A model generated the notes under the pieces. The model saw only the letters and a list, made by a program, of their open reading frames with translations. It searched no databases and was not told where the DNA came from. Position numbers and translations under genes: made by a program. A DNA stretch of 31,013 nt from a virus, in the IMG/VR virus record IMGVR_UViG_3300010153_000056, positions 1 through 31,013 of that record. One strand, written 5' to 3'. Positions 1 to 31,013 of the stretch are shown here, in pieces (position 1 is the first letter of the stretch; each line of letters opens with the position of its first letter).

Positions 1-123
1 CTTTCAGCATCAGAAATATCAGGAATCAACACTCTCGGCAGACATGGTAATCTCTTAGATAAATACTCAGAGGGGTTAAAAGCCTATTATGCGATGTCAT
101 CACTTGATGCCTCAACAGGATTA
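1..123. repeat. Terminal direct repeat, left copy (circular overlap)
   Basis: These 123 bases are identical to 30891-31013. The long LamG gene reads through the join without a frame break, so the repeat most likely records the overlap of a circular assembly and gives a unit genome of 30,890 bp. Confidence 0.95.
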
Positions 124-279
124 AAAGATGTCGGTAATGGCACTATATATGACCGAAGTGGTCAAAGTAATCATGGAACAGGGACTAACACCGAAAGTAG
201 TGATTTAGCAAGTTCACCAAACGCTACCCCTCATGGGTATAGTTCTGGTGATACAAATCGTTCAAGTTCAAAACCTTAA
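1..279 (+). CDS. C-terminal end of the giant LamG adhesin (continues from 27534)
   Basis: Position 1 is in frame with the open frame that starts at 27534 and is still open at the window end. Joined over the 123-base overlap, the frame ends at the TAA at 277-279 and gives a protein of 1,211 residues. The stretch seen here holds the end of the fourth LamG domain and a Ser/Asn/Thr-rich tail with no recognisable domain. An internal ATG at 94 could be read as a separate 61-residue gene, but no ribosome-binding site precedes it and the continuous frame explains it better. Confidence 0.9.
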   Translation, partial: LSASEISGINTLGRHGNLLDKYSEGLKAYYAMSSLDASTGLKDVGNGTIYDRSGQSNHGTGTNTESSDLASSPNATPHGYSSGDTNRSSSKP

Positions 280-290
280 AGGAAAATAAT

Positions 291-617
291 ATGAGTGAAG
301 AAATTACAAGTCGTTGGTCAGATGACTATAGTGGAAGATGGGTAAACAGATGCTATATCATAGTACCTGTAGCAGATATTAACTCTGCTGATTCAGATGA
401 TGGCAACCCATTAATAGATAACGCTATACAATCAAGCAAAGACACATTAAGAAAGAATAGTGGTGATGATGGAGATAGTTCCAAAGCACTATTAAAGTAT
501 AGTTGTGATAATGATCCAGATAATGATCCTAGCTGTTATAGTAGCTATGATAAATATTCTCATAGTCAGATTATGACAGAACTCGCTAAAACAGAATGGA
601 CAACCTCTATTGAATAA
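291..617 (+). CDS. Hypothetical acidic protein next to the adhesin
   Basis: This 108-residue protein is not recognised. The start ATG has a good Shine-Dalgarno sequence (AAAGGAAAATA) 11 bases after the adhesin stop codon. The protein is rich in Asp, Ser, Asn and Tyr and has three Cys residues, at about 22, 72 and 82; the stretch around the last two is full of Asp-Pro. There is no signal peptide or membrane segment. Its last 8 bases overlap the next gene, which suggests translational coupling. Its place between a LamG adhesin and a pilin-like gene hints at a virion or host-surface role, but this is inference only. Confidence 0.7.
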   Translation: MSEEITSRWSDDYSGRWVNRCYIIVPVADINSADSDDGNPLIDNAIQSSKDTLRKNSGDDGDSSKALLKYSCDNDPDNDPSCYSSYDKYSHSQIMTELAKTEWTTSIE

Positions 618-1101
618 TAGGGGTAATTCATTAGCTGAATTTGCAGTTACGATGGCTATTATGGCAACATTAGCCACTACATCAGCACCTGCATTTAGTC
701 GAATAGGGGAAGGTGCTAAAGCCAAACAAACCAAAGCAAACCTAGATAAGATAATTAGTTCTGCTCAAATGTGGTACAATCAACAGATAGAGATCAATGG
801 CATGGGCAAGTTCCCAAGTCAACCACATAGAACTACAAGCATAGGTAACATTGTTGATTACAATGATAATAGAAGGATTGAAGAAGAAGAACTAGAAGGT
901 GCAGAGTTTGTGCCTGTGTGGGCAGATACTTCCTTCTTACACTTGTTTGATAATGACACCATTAAATCACCTTATCAAGAAGGTGGTTATCGGTATGCTA
1001 TTATAGGTGGCTCTGGAACAGGTAATAAGATAGTAAGTCCTATCTTTGTTGTGATAGATAAAGAGAAACCAGAGGATTTTTATAAGTATTACAAGCCATG
1101 A
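610..1101 (+). CDS. Type IV pilin / pseudopilin-like protein
   Basis: The 163-residue product begins with a short basic leader ending in Gly, then NSLAEF, then about 20 hydrophobic residues. This is the class III (prepilin) layout: cleavage after Gly with Glu at +5 of the mature protein, followed by a membrane and assembly helix. The rest is a polar globular part with a SPYQEGGYRY stretch that resembles the SPY-type loop of GspG/GspH-like pseudopilins. The start is a TTG at 610 that overlaps the previous gene by 8 bases, and no strong ribosome-binding site is seen, so translation is probably coupled. Members of this family build type II secretion pseudopili or type IV pili in the host inner membrane. 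A phage copy might decorate, block or use such a fibre; the role is not known. Confidence 0.75.
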   Translation: MNNRGNSLAEFAVTMAIMATLATTSAPAFSRIGEGAKAKQTKANLDKIISSAQMWYNQQIEINGMGKFPSQPHRTTSIGNIVDYNDNRRIEEEELEGAEFVPVWADTSFLHLFDNDTIKSPYQEGGYRYAIIGGSGTGNKIVSPIFVVIDKEKPEDFYKYYKP

Positions 1102-11679: not shown

Positions 11680-12447
11680 ATGGCTAAAAAGTTTTATTAT
11701 GATACAGTAGGTTTATTAGATTTATCATCTGGATCAGTTACAGCAGGTACATACAATTCGAGTACAAATGTTTTTTCTGTAGCCGCAGGTGAGGTTACGA
11801 ATGAACATTATATTAATGACCAATCTATAGGACACGCAGTAACAGATTTTGATGATGAAGATACGATAAGGATTGATTTTGGTAGTTCGCAATCAATAAC
11901 AGATATAGTATATTATAATAATTCCTCAAAAGACTATGATGATTTATTTATTTATGCGAGTTCTAGCGGTACAACATCTTTAGCACTAAAGTCTGAAATA
12001 GCAGCTACATTTGCAGGGTGGACTGCGAACACTTTAGACGCATCAGCTAGTGCAAGGTATTGGTTTCTAAGAAGTGAAGATGCTACACTTAGCGGAATTA
12101 GTGAGGTAATCTTAGGAACTCCCCTAGCGTTTGAAAATGAGCCAGATATAGGTATAGCTACACAGGAAGTATTTGCAACCGATATAAACAAAAGCTATGG
12201 TGGTGTAGAGTATGCTAATAAAAGACATGAGCCACAATCAACTTGGACACTAAACTTCTCTAATATATCATCAACCTTTAAAGGCAATCTAGCATCTATG
12301 GAGGCGATTGTAACCGACTATAAGAAATTTGTTTATTATGATGATAGTGCTTACCACTATGTACGATTAGATGCTCCTATTAAATTTACTGAAGTGGCTT
12401 ATCAACGCTTTAGTGCATCTTTGAAACTAAGGGAGCAGTTATCATAA
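11680..12447 (+). CDS. Minor tail protein with a discoidin-like middle part
   Basis: The 255-residue product starts one base after the hub stop codon. The first half holds a segment (DTIRIDFGSSQSITDIVYYN and following) that resembles the beta-sandwich of F5/8 type C (discoidin/CBM32) domains. The second half, with SYGGVEYANKRHEPQSTW, resembles tail proteins that contact the hub. It is the last rightward structural gene before the convergent integrase, with which it overlaps by 38 bases. The domain match is by pattern only. Confidence 0.65.
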   Translation: MAKKFYYDTVGLLDLSSGSVTAGTYNSSTNVFSVAAGEVTNEHYINDQSIGHAVTDFDDEDTIRIDFGSSQSITDIVYYNNSSKDYDDLFIYASSSGTTSLALKSEIAATFAGWTANTLDASASARYWFLRSEDATLSGISEVILGTPLAFENEPDIGIATQEVFATDINKSYGGVEYANKRHEPQSTWTLNFSNISSTFKGNLASMEAIVTDYKKFVYYDDSAYHYVRLDAPIKFTEVAYQRFSASLKLREQLS

Positions 12448-13333
12448 TTGCCTCAAATGGTTTTAGATAGAGTTCTGTTGTTGCCACTTTATCATGTCCT
12501 AGAAGTTTTGATATTTCAAATATTGAATAGCCTTCTAAAAGTTTAGTTACTGCAAATGTCCTTCTTAGATCACGAAATTGCAAATCTTCAAATAGTCCAG
12601 ATTCATCTATATGCTTATTTTTTTCTATCCCCCAATATTTATTTAATTGGTGTCGGGTTATATCCCACTCCCTATATATATAAGGTGTGGCATCAAATAA
12701 CTGTATGGCTTTTTTCTTAATAGATTTTTTTGTTTTGGTATGTACAACAATATAATTATCAAAATGAGCAGATAACTTAAATGATAAAAGTTCCATCTGT
12801 CTTGCACCTGTAAGTAATGAGATCATGCAAATATCTTTATAGATACAAGGTGTAAAGTGGTCTTTGAAAATTTGCGATTCTTTAGATGATAAAATTCTAG
12901 TGCGTGGGTTGGTTTCATTAACAGAATATTTTATTTGATCGGTTGAATAACCCTGTCTATCACCCCAATTAATAACTCTGTTGATGGTTCTAACCCACAT
13001 TGATCTGGTGGTAGGGTGTGGCGGCAGTTTCTTTTTCTTACTAAACCTAGTAAGTATATCAGTATATAATTCTATAGTTCTTGGCTTATAGCCATGATCA
13101 TATTTTAAAAATATTTTAACAAGTTTTTTAAAGGCTAGAGTCTGTTTTGTTGGATAACGTAATTCATTAAAGACATTAGGATATAATTTCCTAGCTGTCT
13201 GTACTGCCAACTTATGATCCTTAACACCTGTAGATAGTTGCTTACGCTTATAATTGTAGCAAAGCTGATAGATGTAATAACCATTCCTATCTTTGTATAA
13301 TGAGCCAGAGAAAGGTAGTTTCTTACTTGCCAT
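12410..13333 (-). CDS. int: Tyrosine recombinase (phage integrase)
   Basis: The 307-residue protein has an N-terminal arm-binding-like part (SGSLYKDRNGYYIYQL), a SAM-like core-binding domain (about 60-135) and a C-terminal catalytic domain. Catalytic residues seen are Arg in LLTGARQMELL, Lys in HTKTKKS, Arg in FRDLRRTFAV, His in LLGHDKVATT and Tyr in ELYLKP. The position usually held by the first His (HDLRRT) is Arg here. The start ATG (complement of 13331-13333) follows a GGTGG ribosome-binding site and lies next to attP, the classical place. The end converges with and overlaps the minor tail gene. It integrates and excises the phage at a tRNA-Ser gene. Confidence 0.93.
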   Translation of the reverse strand: MASKKLPFSGSLYKDRNGYYIYQLCYNYKRKQLSTGVKDHKLAVQTARKLYPNVFNELRYPTKQTLAFKKLVKIFLKYDHGYKPRTIELYTDILTRFSKKKKLPPHPTTRSMWVRTINRVINWGDRQGYSTDQIKYSVNETNPRTRILSSKESQIFKDHFTPCIYKDICMISLLTGARQMELLSFKLSAHFDNYIVVHTKTKKSIKKKAIQLFDATPYIYREWDITRHQLNKYWGIEKNKHIDESGLFEDLQFRDLRRTFAVTKLLEGYSIFEISKLLGHDKVATTELYLKPFEAIMITAPLVSKMH

Positions 13334-20813: not shown

Positions 20814-21117
20814 AGAAAAGGCGGTTAAAAGGCGGTCTAATGGTCAATTTGTTAAGGGGAACAAAGAAGGTAAGAAGTTTAAAAAGGGTGATATACCTAA
20901 CCCAAATGGTAGGAATGGTGCTTTAGCTGATATTATAAATAAAGTATTTGATGAAGAAGTAGATAAAAAGACCAAGAAAGAATTAATGATACGAAAAGTA
21001 TATCGTATGGCTATGAATGGCAGTTTAGGGGCTGTCACCTATCTTAGTGATCGTACAGAGGGTAAAGCTAAAGAAACCAAAGAGATCACTCATAAGGACA
21101 CCCTCATCATTGAGTGA
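20806..21117 (+). CDS. Probable small terminase subunit (DUF5681-like start)
   Basis: The 103-residue protein begins with KRRSNGQFVKGNKEGKKF and GDIPNPNGR, a basic GxFxKGN-like segment typical of DUF5681 proteins that often precede terL. The second half is helical (LIRKVYRMAMNG-like, YLSDRTEG). Position directly before the large terminase supports a DNA-recognition role in packaging. Its stop overlaps the terL GTG start (GTGA). Confidence 0.65.
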   Translation: MSKEKAVKRRSNGQFVKGNKEGKKFKKGDIPNPNGRNGALADIINKVFDEEVDKKTKKELMIRKVYRMAMNGSLGAVTYLSDRTEGKAKETKEITHKDTLIIE

Positions 21118-22325
21118 GTCAGTTCAGAATACAGAGAAAGAATTTCCTACCACATCAGTTACGATGGTGGGATTTACAAACATTTTACAAAGTTCTCATA
21201 GGTGGCTACGGAAGTGGGAAAACTTATATAGGGGCATTACGATCAATATATCTGAGTTATATCAATGCTCCACATCCTGGGATGTATGTGAGTCCATCAC
21301 ATGGACTTTCACAGAGAACAATAGTCATAACCTTAAAGGACATACTTAATCGCACAGGAATAGACTACACCTACAACCAGATGAAGGGTGAGTTTCATAT
21401 CCATAATTGGGATGGACATATTTGGTTGGGATCGGGTGATAAGCCAGATTCATTAAAGGGTAGCAATTTGTCTTGGAGCGGCATAGATGAACCATTTATA
21501 CAAAAGAAGGAAGTGTTTGATCAAATGATAGCTAGGGTAAGACACCCAGAGGCATCTCACATGGAGATATTCTTAACAGGCACACCAGAGCAACTTAATT
21601 GGGGATATGAGTTGTCTAATCGTACTGATATAGATGTTGGTATCGTTATTGGATCAACTCTAGAGAATACACACCTACCAGATGAATATAAACAAAACCT
21701 CTTAACAGCTTACTCTGATGATGAGATAAAAGCCTATGTACATGGGCAGTTTGTTAATCTAACGCAGGGCAGAGTATATAAAGACTTTGATCGCAATAAA
21801 CACATTACTAAGAGATCAGATATTAAAGACCTCCCTGTTATTATTATGCAAGATTACAATGTTGATTATGCCTCGGCTTTAGCGGCATATCTTGGTAATG
21901 GTTGGATTCATGTATTTAAAGAGTATCGAATGAGTAATGTAAATACTTATGATATGGCAGAGATAATAAAAAAAGACTTTCCTAATTGTGATCTATATTG
22001 TGATGCAAGTGGTAACTCTAGAAAGAGTTCAGCAACCCAGAGTGATCATCAGATCATGCAAAGTTTTGGGTTTAAAGTTAAAGCACCTAGAAAGAACCCT
22101 GCTGTCAGGGATAGGGTTGCTAGTGTTAATAAGCTGATACGCTCTGGAAATTTTAGTGTAGATAATTGCCCTAATCTAGTAATGGATTTAGAGCAAAATA
22201 CTTGGAGGCTTGGGGATATAGATAAAAGAGATATGAAACAGACACATTTATCTGATGCTCTTGGGTATGGGATCAATTTTTTATTTCCTATCCGCAAGAA
22301 AACAATGGCTAGTAAATCATGGTAG
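21114..22325 (+). CDS. terL: Terminase large subunit
   Basis: The 403-residue protein has an N-terminal ATPase with Walker A GGYGSGKT (30-37), Walker B-like WSGIDEPF, and ILTGTP-type motif III (FLTGTP). The C-terminal RNase H-like nuclease shows acidic residues in IMQDYNVDYA, LYCDASGNS and HLSDALGYG. It drives DNA into the prohead and cuts it. The start is a GTG at 21114 that overlaps the small subunit stop. The size is in the lower part of the usual 400-550 range and the domain set looks whole. Confidence 0.95.
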   Translation: MSQFRIQRKNFLPHQLRWWDLQTFYKVLIGGYGSGKTYIGALRSIYLSYINAPHPGMYVSPSHGLSQRTIVITLKDILNRTGIDYTYNQMKGEFHIHNWDGHIWLGSGDKPDSLKGSNLSWSGIDEPFIQKKEVFDQMIARVRHPEASHMEIFLTGTPEQLNWGYELSNRTDIDVGIVIGSTLENTHLPDEYKQNLLTAYSDDEIKAYVHGQFVNLTQGRVYKDFDRNKHITKRSDIKDLPVIIMQDYNVDYASALAAYLGNGWIHVFKEYRMSNVNTYDMAEIIKKDFPNCDLYCDASGNSRKSSATQSDHQIMQSFGFKVKAPRKNPAVRDRVASVNKLIRSGNFSVDNCPNLVMDLEQNTWRLGDIDKRDMKQTHLSDALGYGINFLFPIRKKTMASKSW

Positions 22326-27533: not shown

Positions 27534-30500
27534 ATGCTAGGACTAGGCAACTTATTAAGCAAAGGGAAGGTTCTCGGCTTTCCCAACAAATACTCTTTCA
27601 ATTTCGATGGTTCTGATGATTATTTAGTAACTCAAAGTAATGTTGGAATAAGTGGCTCTAATGCTTATACAATGAATTGTTGGTTTAAGTTAGATGCTTA
27701 TGGTTCTTTTCCTGTAATAATGTCAAGTGGGGAGATAGCAGGATATAAAGAAAATTCATTACTTATTCGTACAGACCATAACACAGTTGGGTGGGGAAAT
27801 CAAGCAGGTGCTAATGATTTTGCAAATGCCTCTGGTACTACAATATCTTTAGATACTTGGTACATGGCTACTCTTACTTTTAATGGTAGTGATACAATAA
27901 AAATTTATATAAATGGAGCGTTAGATGGTACAAAATCAGTAAGTAGTATTAATATTACTGATAGTGTTTTATATGTAGGAAAAAGAGTAAGTGGATTACA
28001 ACTTGATGGATGTATTGACGAGGTTGCTATTTGGAATACAGAACTAAGTGCCTCAGATGTCGCAAAGCTTGGTTCTAAGCCTTTAAACCTTTCCAAAGCA
28101 ACTTCTTACGATACAGACCGAACGAGCAACCTTAAACTATGGCTCAGAGCAGGGGATAAGGTACTACCAGAAGAAGATACCTCAATCGCCAGAAGTGACT
28201 TTTATACTGATTTTGATGGTACGGATGATTATGTAGATGCAGGAACTACGATGGGAACAGCACTTGGAGATAACTATGCAGGTAGTTTAACAACTTGCTT
28301 TTGGTTTAAAGCAGATGTAACAAGTGGAGATGATGGTTTATTTAATATTGGAAGTTTTAGTAGCAGTGAAGGTGAGTGGTCAATATCAATAGTTGGTGAT
28401 AAACTAAGATTTAAATTAAATAATGGTGGTTGGAAAGTAGAATTAAATCCATTTACATCAAAAGATTGGAATCATTTAGCTTGTATTTATAGTACAGGAA
28501 GTGAGTCTAATTCAAAAATGTACTTAAATGGTGAATCTGTTGGAACAGCAAGTGGCACATTTCCATCTGCATCAGACATTGATTTAAATGGGTTAAAAAC
28601 TATTCTTGGCGGTTATTATAGTTCTTCATATCCACTTGATGGTGCAATATCAAATGTAAGCATTCACCAAACCGCCCTCGATGCTCAAACCATAAAGCAG
28701 TTTGCAAAATCAAGGTTTACCCCAATGCGTGATAATCGCTTTTCTGTAGTGGATTTTGATGGTACGAATGATTATATCGATTGTGGTAATGATTCTTCTT
28801 TGAACCCATCTTCTGCTATTACTATTTCAGCATGGGTATATCCAGAAACATTAGATAATTATAGATATATTGTAACAAGAGATGTAGATGGGAATGGTGC
28901 TTATAGAATGGAGCTTGGTGCAAGTAATTTTTATGTTGCATTCGGGACTGGAAGTGCCCAATCTTCTATATCTGTAGCTCATGGGATGTCAGTTAATAAT
29001 TGGTATCATGCAGTAGTTACTTACGATTCAACAACAGCAGAGGTTTTTGTAAATGGTGTTTCTAAGGGTACTGCATCAATATCAAGAGCCATGCTACAAT
29101 CATCACAACCTACAAAGATTGGAAAGCCTCACGATGGAACAAGTAGTAACTATTGGGATGGCTCTATTTCATCTGTTTCAATTTATAATGTAGCCAAATC
29201 AGCAGAGGAAGTTTACGCTCTGTATAGCAAGGGTATTACTTATGATGAATCTTCACTTAGTGGACTTGTTGGATATTGGAGAATGGGCGATGACACAAGT
29301 AGGGTATATCCTACCATAGCAGATTCAAGTTCTAACTCAAACGATGGTACGATCACAAATGGTGCAGTAGGTGACATAGTACAGCAAATGGTTGCAGGTT
29401 GGGATTTAGGTGCATTTGAGAGTAGTTCAGAAGAGTTGGGTGGAGACTTAACTAAGGGCGTAGGAACTATGGAAAGCGGTTCTGGTTGGTCAGCATTCGG
29501 TGGTTCTCCTACTATAGCATACTCAACAAGTAAACTTTATGAAGGTACACAAAGTATTCACATTACAGGAGCAACTAATGGTCATGGCATTCAATTAGGT
29601 AATCAATTTGGTGTAATTAGTGGAGAACGAATATATTTAAGTGCTTGGGTTTATGTTGTAGGTGGAGCATACATATCTATGGGTATGAGTGGAATGACTG
29701 AAGCATTAGCTAAAGAATTTACACCAACTGCTGATACTTGGGTAAACCTTACTCATACATTTACATCAAACTCTACAGGTAGTTCATACATTGGATTTTT
29801 TGCAAGGGATGGTAATAGTGAATTTTATGTTGATAATGTAGTGGCAAATAAAGTTCTCCAATCAGAAGTAAGTGACACTTACCCTGCCATCATAGATGTA
29901 AATGAGCCTGTTCTTGGAGCAGAGATACTTACTACTAATGTTAATACAGATTGGAGTGCTTATGGAAGTAATGATGTAGATACTGTTACTGGTGGTGTCA
30001 AAATAACCCATGATGATAATGCAGGTGGAGCTTCAAGAACTATTGCAGGTAGTTCTGGTAAATTATACAAAGTAGTATTTAATGCTTATTATAGTGGTGG
30101 TACTGCACCTAATGTTAAAGTATGGACAGGAGCAGTTAATTCTGGAACTCAAGCATTAACAACATCAAGTACACAACATACTATTTATTTTGTAAATGCA
30201 GGTACATCCTCATTGTATTTTGATTCTGTAAATGGTTCACAAGAAATATATATTTTAAATCTTTCTGCAAAGGAAATACAAGGCAATGTTGGCACAATGA
30301 CCAACCAAGCCGCAGATGATTTAGTCTATTCCTCAGTTCTGCCAGATCAATCCTTTCTCACAGGGGTAAACTCTGCGTATAACTTTATAGACTTGGATGG
30401 AAGTAATGAATACATTGATACAGGCAGTCCATTTGAATCATTATTCAAGCAAAGTTTTACACTTTCTGCTTGGGTTAAGATAGATGATGGTCAGCCATCT

Positions 30501-31013
30501 GCTATAAATGTAATATTCTCTACAGTTAAACAATGGTCTGGATATATTTATTTTCAAGTTGAAGATGATGGGAGAATTAAATTTGTTCATGGTACACATG
30601 ATGCAAAAGAATTAAATACATATACTGATAGTGCTGTCTTTGCAGATGGTGCAAGTGATTGGACTCATGTAGCAGGTGTTTTCAGTAGGTCGAGTGCAAC
30701 AAGCGGTTCAGTAACAATATATGTAAATGGCTCAAGTGCAGGATCAAGCAGTTCTCCTGTTGCAGGATGGAACGCAGATAATTATGATAATAACTTATAT
30801 GATGTTGCAATAGGTACAAGGAATAACCAAGATAGCCATGATAGATTTTTTAGTGGAGATATAGGTCAAACAGCTATATATAGCAAAGCACTTTCAGCAT
30901 CAGAAATATCAGGAATCAACACTCTCGGCAGACATGGTAATCTCTTAGATAAATACTCAGAGGGGTTAAAAGCCTATTATGCGATGTCATCACTTGATGC
31001 CTCAACAGGATTA
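27534..31013 (+). CDS. Giant LamG-repeat adhesin / receptor-binding protein (continues at 1)
   Basis: The frame starts at the ATG at 27534, one base after the preceding stop, and has no stop in the window; it is finished at 279 across the circular join (1,211 residues). LamG-like domains start at about residues 24 (FDGSDDYLV), 224 (FDGTDDYVDAG), 408 (FDGTNDYIDCG) and 949 (LDGSNEYIDTG), each with AFW/CWF-type strands and an IDEVAIWN-like end. Between domains 3 and 4 are two jelly-roll-like parts (about 620-780 and 790-918) that resemble carbohydrate-binding modules. No signal peptide is seen. It is most likely a tail or head fibre that binds host glycans. It sits after the capsid genes and not with the tail genes, which is odd. 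Confidence 0.85.
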   Translation, partial: MLGLGNLLSKGKVLGFPNKYSFNFDGSDDYLVTQSNVGISGSNAYTMNCWFKLDAYGSFPVIMSSGEIAGYKENSLLIRTDHNTVGWGNQAGANDFANASGTTISLDTWYMATLTFNGSDTIKIYINGALDGTKSVSSINITDSVLYVGKRVSGLQLDGCIDEVAIWNTELSASDVAKLGSKPLNLSKATSYDTDRTSNLKLWLRAGDKVLPEEDTSIARSDFYTDFDGTDDYVDAGTTMGTALGDNYAGSLTTCFWFKADVTSGDDGLFNIGSFSSSEGEWSISIVGDKLRFKLNNGGWKVELNPFTSKDWNHLACIYSTGSESNSKMYLNGESVGTASGTFPSASDIDLNGLKTILGGYYSSSYPLDGAISNVSIHQTALDAQTIKQFAKSRFTPMRDNRFSVVDFDGTNDYIDCGNDSSLNPSSAITISAWVYPETLDNYRYIVTRDVDGNGAYRMELGASNFYVAFGTGSAQSSISVAHGMSVNNWYHAVVTYDSTTAEVFVNGVSKGTASISRAMLQSSQPTKIGKPHDGTSSNYWDGSISSVSIYNVAKSAEEVYALYSKGITYDESSLSGLVGYWRMGDDTSRVYPTIADSSSNSNDGTITNGAVGDIVQQMVAGWDLGAFESSSEELGGDLTKGVGTMESGSGWSAFGGSPTIAYSTSKLYEGTQSIHITGATNGHGIQLGNQFGVISGERIYLSAWVYVVGGAYISMGMSGMTEALAKEFTPTADTWVNLTHTFTSNSTGSSYIGFFARDGNSEFYVDNVVANKVLQSEVSDTYPAIIDVNEPVLGAEILTTNVNTDWSAYGSNDVDTVTGGVKITHDDNAGGASRTIAGSSGKLYKVVFNAYYSGGTAPNVKVWTGAVNSGTQALTTSSTQHTIYFVNAGTSSLYFDSVNGSQEIYILNLSAKEIQGNVGTMTNQAADDLVYSSVLPDQSFLTGVNSAYNFIDLDGSNEYIDTGSPFESLFKQSFTLSAWVKIDDGQPSAINVIFSTVKQWSGYIYFQVEDDGRIKFVHGTHDAKELNTYTDSAVFADGASDWTHVAGVFSRSSATSGSVTIYVNGSSAGSSSSPVAGWNADNYDNNLYDVAIGTRNNQDSHDRFFSGDIGQTAIYSKALSASEISGINTLGRHGNLLDKYSEGLKAYYAMSSLDASTGL
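30891..31013. repeat. Terminal direct repeat, right copy (circular overlap)
   Basis: This is the second copy of the 123-base identity with the window start. It lies inside the coding region of the giant LamG protein and falls on a codon boundary of the same reading frame at position 1. Confidence 0.95.

Follow-up and report, generated by a model that had tools for sequence, protein, structure and literature searches.

A shortened type IV pilin gene beside the lysis genes of a phage, very likely homologous to pilins of Ca. Neomarinimicrobiota (SAR406)

The stretch of DNA analysed here in full (the window) comes from an uncultured marine virus that infects bacteria and makes up an IMG/VR record of 31,013 bases, of which bases 1-123 and 30891-31013 are identical, forming an exact 123-bp direct terminal repeat. 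Because its first and last 123 bases are the same, the gene of a giant adhesin is read as spanning the record ends, and the window is likely to represent an entire genome of ~30.9 kb, circularly permuted. The N-terminal 1160 aa of the adhesin are encoded at 27534-31013 (+), from where the ORF continues across the record ends to the C-terminal end at 1-279 (+). This is followed by a small ORF (291-617, +), which differs among phages and has a homologue at 13 of 80 loci, and by the gene under study (610-1101, +), which codes for what is very likely a shortened type IV prepilin of 163 aa (P0001), named from its ORF, its relatives and its homology to host proteins. Immediately 3' of the pilin gene lies a 41-aa membrane ORF (1098-1223, +), and then come two lysis-block proteins of 97 aa each, namely a membrane/coiled-coil protein with weak Rz-like spanin and holin matches (1223-1516, +) and a membrane protein with a distant likeness to a 105-aa protein of related phages (1562-1855, +). 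An M15-type endolysin (2308-2712, +; PHROG 465, E = 7.7e-36) closes the lysis block. Further along the genome are an integrase (12410-13333, -; PHROG 1, E = 6e-19), which makes a temperate phage likely, and the large subunit of the terminase (21114-22325, +), used as the query in the search for a host. Since the genome encodes a tape-measure protein, a terminase and an integrase, the window probably represents a temperate siphovirus. A scan for promoters and terminators found seven promoter-like sites, against 13.4 expected, and one terminator-like site, against 1.2 expected, numbers that carry no signal.

The pilin ORF opens with a TTG codon that overlaps the stop of the preceding ORF (291-617) and is the sole usual in-frame start codon between the preceding stop and the prepilin motif. 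The N-terminus reads M-N-N-R-G / N-S-L-A-E-F, with Gly at -1, Glu at +5 (E10), a hydrophobic helix and Pro at +22 (P27). The predicted leader is MNNRG (610-624, +), and cleavage by PilD is expected after Gly5, as inferred from the motif. The spine comprises residues 6-63 (625-798, +), including Glu+5, Pro+22 and the predicted helices 6-23 and 34-63, and is delimited by the structural model and by conservation. The roles of Glu+5 and Pro+22 in pilins, and proline at +22 as a pilin rule, are general background. Residues 83-94 (856-891, +) form the loop DYNDNRRIEEEE, which we call EF-hand-like on the basis of the generally known EF-hand consensus; calcium binding by this loop is putative. An SPYQ loop follows at residues 120-123 (967-978, +); S120-Q123 is invariant in 22 of 22 aligned sequences, and most host pilins have SPFQ or SPYQ. 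A preliminary description, made from sequence alone, had reported the prepilin layout (Gly, then NSLAEF with Glu at +5, then a hydrophobic helix), the SPYQ loop, and the giant adhesin and lysis genes as neighbours, and all of these held when the sequence was read again.

Relatives of this protein occur in IMG/VR, where a scan returned 90 in 102 candidate stretches. The best 80 were retained and, with the window copy, make up a set of 81 short pilins that are equal in length except for two truncated at contig ends. Gly-1, Glu+5 and Pro+22 are each found in 81 of 81, as are Asn at +1 and the EF-hand-like pattern D-x-N-x-N-R-R-[IV]-E-x-x-E, and residue -2 is K or R in 79 and S in two. The window pilin differs from the other short pilins by a pS of 0.56-0.75 and a pN of 0.11-0.16; the median pN over the first 30 codons of the short pilins is 0.048, and the median dN/dS is 0.135 (79 complete sequences; 1,531 of 3,081 pairs with dS 0.1-1). 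Some 102 of the 163 positions are invariant among 22 phage forms. As synonymous sites are strongly diverged and pN is low, lowest of all in the first 30 codons, we conclude that purifying selection maintains the short pilin, most strictly in its spine. The retention of Gly-1, Glu+5 and Pro+22 in every sequence, with high pS and low pN, likewise indicates that the prepilin motif is not a product of chance. As a separate observation, 11 of the 81 short pilins (L006, L012, L016, L022, L023, L024, L037, L039, L040, L071 and L074) carry a C-x-C...C-x-C motif before the cleavage Gly; C-x-C in the first 40 residues is absent from every host pilin examined.

Pfam, PHROGs and NCBIfam alone would leave the window pilin without a name. 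Its match to Pfam N_methyl (13.9 bits) falls under the curated cut-off of 21.2. Among the PHROGs, at E <= 1, it matches only phrog_11596 (E = 0.04, unknown function) and none of known function, and it is not matched by the profile of the cyanophage pilin, PHROG 3433. Its NCBIfam matches are weak, and the GspG model (TIGR01710) is not among the four families listed at E <= 5. Searching the phage collection with the window pilin gave zero matches, and a profile of 22 short phage pilin sequences (A1), run against PDB sequences, returned pilins in four of six rows, none of them significant (best E = 0.2). AlphaFold2 with 22 close sequences gave an unusable model (pLDDT 40), and a usable one only once full-length phage pilins had been added (alignment of 36 phage pilins; pLDDT 79.2, pTM 0.70). 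This model has helices at residues 6-23 and 34-63 and strands at 127-132, 145-150 and 158-161, with low confidence at residues 19-31, and predicts a pilin-like fold in which an N-terminal helix packs on an antiparallel sheet. Rows 1-16 of its VIA-align comparison are all pilins or pseudopilins (Z 6.1-2.8; next row Z 2.6), and Z values near 6 lend this predicted fold middling support. Foldseek of the model against PDB and BFVD found no neighbour at E <= 0.001.

Stronger evidence was obtained from Ca. Neomarinimicrobiota (SAR406). The A1 profile matched 45 of 245 genomes of this phylum at E <= 0.05 and 17 of 245 below 1e-12 (best 2.2e-25), and profile residues 3-79 and 108-163 matched the same host frames. 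In the control phylum of Chlorobium, by comparison, one of 247 genomes was matched (E = 0.036, N-terminus not included), and in that of a Desulfobacterales MAG nine of 247 (best E 4.2e-6). Scanning species genomes for the exact pattern of A1 brought up 21 candidate stretches, none of them with a relative, and A1 had no match in five genomes holding terminase relatives. The matched host pilin lies in an operon whose order was drawn from twenty host stretches, the upstream part not being in view in all. Typically a response regulator comes first, followed by PilD (Peptidase_A24; at 1191-2012 in L228), PilB (T2SSE with MshEN), a sigma-54-type regulator, PilC (T2SSF), the pilin and further pilins of the GFTLIEL type; the Pfam names come from L228, and the response regulator and the sigma-54-type regulator were assigned by eye. 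Some host genomes have a 336-aa protein between PilC and the pilin (L228, L229), and some a secretin on the operon contig (G152:C12, G158:C1). Secretins are present in 15 of 16 host genomes, and PilT is above its cut-off in 12 of 16. As the host PilB and PilC models score under their curated cut-offs and GspF scores are equal to those of PilC, the operon may specify either a pilus or a T2SS- or MSHA-like filament.

BLASTP of the window pilin against the host pilin that follows pilD-pilB-pilC (L231:7931-8560) gave E = 2e-39, with 36% identity over 200 columns, 41 of them gap columns. Over residues 4-34 phage and host pilins are 81-83% identical, and across the last 55 residues at most 51%. The gap falls in the central region, which is long and variable in most host pilins, and from mature lengths the phage form is ~40-80 residues shorter than most of them. 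It thus shares with the operon pilins (L231:7931-8560, L228:7655-8326) homology over its full length, the C-terminal SP[FY]Q...G.GSG...P and the final Pro, but has a shorter middle bearing the EF-hand-like loop and a shorter leader, and stands alone in the phage late region. The D-x-N-x-N-R-R-[IV]-E-x-x-E pattern occurs in none of the host pilins examined, although nine of 36 host pilins, like 15 of the 78 full-length ones from phages, have a D-x-[DN]-x-D-G motif somewhere in their sequence. There is also one short paralogue in the host (L245, 159 aa), but it lacks the EF-hand-like loop. In a tree of 62 rows, eight short representatives form one clade (100/100) on a stem of 1.96 (support 83/47), and the full-length phage pilins are scattered, one of them beside host L231 (100/94); the bootstrap was unsettled, and the origin of the short clade among host pilins is unresolved.

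From the homology to the pilin of a PilD/PilB/PilC operon, the conserved prepilin features and the predicted pilin-like fold, we conclude that the window gene is very likely a type IV pilin homologous to the SAR406 pilin, which supports the identification in the preliminary description. That identification would have been refuted by a predicted structure without a long N-terminal helix and pilin fold, or by homologues found only among tail proteins. The model has the long helix, with a low-confidence break at residues 19-31, and a pilin-like sheet, and the homologues are pilins. A search with GspG, GspH and PilA profiles had been proposed as a further check; the general profiles gave little support (N_methyl under its cut-off, GspG unmatched), and this came from host pilin homology instead. 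Pfam likewise fails to recognise the host pilin L228:7655-8326 at E <= 0.01.

The probable host of the window phage is a lineage of Ca. Neomarinimicrobiota, an indirect assignment in which the pilin profile was run against two control phyla, Pseudomonadota not among them. Eighteen relatives of the window terminase were found in genomes (14 in Chlorobiaceae, two in Ca. Neomarinimicrobiota, one in a Desulfobacterales MAG and one in another bacterium), the best match, at 53%, being in the Desulfobacterales MAG. The fourteen terminase relatives in Chlorobiaceae genomes (L178-L191; 43-49% identical) imply that relatives of the window phage also infect green sulfur bacteria. A fragment with terminase and structural phage genes lies inside a pilin-rich Neomarinimicrobiota genome (L403, G143:C43). 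The neighbouring phage genes on this contig are 27-28% identical to those of the window and 40% (terminase) to that of L086; the contig could derive from a free phage that was binned together with this genome. Among 61 genomes of the order, searched without a control phylum, the best relative of the integrase (32% identical) is in G160, a pilin-bearing genome.

The short pilin is a mobile, optional accessory gene under purifying selection. At least four types of genome carry it, one of them being that of the window. A second type (L085, L086, L091, L105) is distinguished by its tape-measure type and by a terminase only 22-24% identical to that of the window, and two further types (L129, L132) have a different head protein family (PHROG 1328), their head proteins being 26-29% identical to each other over ~300 residues. 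The short pilins placed before the lysis genes of phages with such unrelated heads and terminases are 75-84% identical to that of the window, and those of the types just named 80-84%. In the phage collection the L132-type head protein had no match and the L129-type a single one, at 26%, to a Microcystis phage; no cultured phage or host of the short-pilin group is among the records searched. We also surveyed the best 80 of at least 595 loci around the conserved 105-aa lysis-module protein. The pilin is present within 2.5 kb upstream in 48 of these 80 and absent from 21 with at least 1.5 kb of upstream sequence, 16 of which were read; the remaining 11 were too short. Where the pilin is present and lysis genes are in view, the two are always near each other. 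L394 lacks the pilin, although the genes on either side resemble those of L085 and L091.

Full-length pilins of the same family are encoded by other uncultured marine phages. A scan with the host pilin alignment gave 186 relatives in 232 stretches, and from the best 80 (L248-L327) 78 full-length phage pilins were read, with mature lengths of 194-205 residues. Two pilin-like ORFs are present in 30 of these stretches, three in 15 and four in 27. L272 and L251, at least, are T4-like phages, as the neighbours of the pilins are a UvsX-like recombinase, a gp32-like protein, a DnaB-like helicase and an SbcD-like nuclease; the status of the remaining loci was judged by eye. Clusters of two to four pilin-like genes are seen in L249, L251, L259, L263, L272, L273, L316 and others, each headed by a gene for a full-length pilin whose identity with the host pilin of SAR406 reaches at most ~80%. 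These pilins differ from the short form in being full length, host-like and mostly clustered, and stand apart from the short clade in the tree. Two further genes were noted at these clusters. A protein of ~200 aa upstream of the pilins (L251:6508-7155, L249:2371-2973, L263:6776-7411, L316:6889-7467) resembles at its start the first residues of PilB, but this likeness is unproven and no relationship is claimed (BLASTP E = 0.15, no Pfam MshEN match). A small, probably secreted thioredoxin-like protein adjoins the pilin cluster in L251 (7165-7539; Pfam Thioredoxin E = 0.0004, under cut-off), with similar ORFs in L259, L263 and L316.

Phage-encoded pilins as such are already known from cyanophages. 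The family PHROG 3433 (Synechococcus phages ACG-2014f and S-CAM7), filed under moron, auxiliary and host takeover, comprises GFTLIEL-type pilins located in a region with psbD and talC; its pilin matches the second pilin of a T4-like phage at the N-terminus only (~43% over 42 residues) and does not match the window protein. A hypothetical protein near the terminase genes of Vibrio phage 033B (L402, record 39233-39706) also has the look of a GFTLIEL-type pilin, and is 30% identical to the second pilin of a T4-like phage. The earlier statement that pilin-like proteins are not standard phage parts therefore needs qualifying, as cyanophages have an annotated pilin family: such proteins are rare, but not unknown. 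Notable in the present case are the host origin that could be traced, the trimmed form, the exchange among phages that are not related and the clusters of several pilin genes. In the open-access literature, searched by title and start of abstract, no paper on pilins of SAR406 phages was found.

We favour, with a probability of roughly 0.55, the reading that the gene supplies a host-derived, shortened pilin that co-assembles into the host filament and changes its surface. This reading is inferred, without data on cleavage, assembly or expression. From the gene order, the pilin would be made late, together with the tail-fibre and lysis genes. Host PilD would cleave the prepilin after Gly5; processing by the host prepilin peptidase, as proposed in the preliminary description, is compatible with the motif, and cleavage itself is an inference from sequence. 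The mature subunit would reside in the inner membrane, docking through Glu+5 and its near-host-identical helix, and host PilB and PilC may polymerise it alongside, or in place of, host pilins. With its core retained and most of the variable central region gone, the phage pilin would give the filament an altered surface. The likeliest benefit, also inferred, is that neither competing filament-dependent phages nor the progeny of the phage itself would still adsorb to the doomed cell. On balance we lean slightly towards co-assembly, an inference in its own right, and lean slightly away from exclusion of filament-dependent adsorption as the benefit, which is likewise inferred and without phage-exclusion data. 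The earlier proposal of altered host pili or secretion, or of exclusion of other phages, thus stands as unproven.

The literature offers some context for this reading. Variability of exposed pilin regions is supposed to serve escape from phages (PMC7994388), and some phages are known to exclude others by way of type IV pili (PMC8764522, PMC11436027); the known phage inhibitors act on PilB or PilC (PMC11436027, PMC8764522). The excluders of Pseudomonas phages (PfsE and others) may share the outcome proposed here, namely a changed filament and the exclusion of pilus-dependent phages (PMC8764522, PMC11436027). However, PfsE-type proteins act on PilC, PilB or pilin expression and are not described there as pilins, whereas here the filament subunit itself is proposed. 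Several points count against our reading, among them the missed N_methyl cut-off, the absence of a significant Foldseek neighbour, the middling Z values and the indirect host assignment described above. The host filament could possibly be T2SS- or MSHA-like instead of a retractile pilus; no phage has been shown to use a SAR406 filament, which bears on exclusion; and the full-length, host-like pilins of T4-like phages ill fit a need to remove the variable region.

The alternative that survives best is that of an auxiliary gene, by which the phage pilin maintains or enhances the host filament during infection for adhesion, suspension, uptake of DNA or nutrients, or secretion. It remains possible: T4-like phages have clustered full-length pilins up to ~80% identical to those of the host, and cyanophage pilins lie near psbD and talC in a PHROG filed as moron, auxiliary and host takeover. 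However, the window gene is trimmed and placed before the lysis genes, which is late for a metabolic helper. It is unlikely that the pilin is a poison subunit, entering the assembly machine and capping or stalling the filament so that cells become bald. A near-identical spine with a changed globular part could dock without packing, and phage inhibitors targeting PilB or PilC set a precedent; but conservation extends to the C-terminal domain (up to 51% with the host over 55 residues; some 102 of 163 positions invariant among 22 phage forms), beyond what a plug needs, and a short host paralogue (L245) exists. Two other explanations can largely be set aside, the gene being optional and shared across phage types. 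A lysis-block membrane protein using the pilin route or the secretin for release would account for the constant proximity to visible lysis genes, but is very unlikely, as the lysis blocks without a pilin (21 loci) are complete and the full-length pilins of T4-like phages adjoin other genes. A virion role, as part of a tail or fibre built on a pilin-like stem, is suggested by the adjoining adhesin gene and small companion ORF but is very unlikely too, as the same dispensable protein occurs across phages with unrelated heads and tails and has its prepilin leader and spine in common with host pilins.

Returning to the co-assembling, host-derived pilin, its recurrence in trimmed form in unrelated viruses suggests that these viruses rebuild or jam host filaments during infection. 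A bolder version, to which we give rather less than even credence, holds that unrelated SAR406 phage lineages trade host-derived pilin genes to rebuild the host surface filament, T4-like phages with clusters of pilins and smaller phages with one trimmed subunit, in which a putatively calcium-binding loop replaces the exposed variable region. The function of the pilin is testable, as similar phages with (L085, L091) and without (L394) the gene exist. Type IV pili are known phage receptors, and inhibitors of their assembly are known to be encoded by phages; a trimmed, host-derived filament subunit would control the receptor in a different way, and if the bolder version is true, a virus would decide which other viruses still see the cell. 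The finding also provides a lead on the biology of SAR406, pointing to which filament matters and to several phage lineages that probably attack the same clade.
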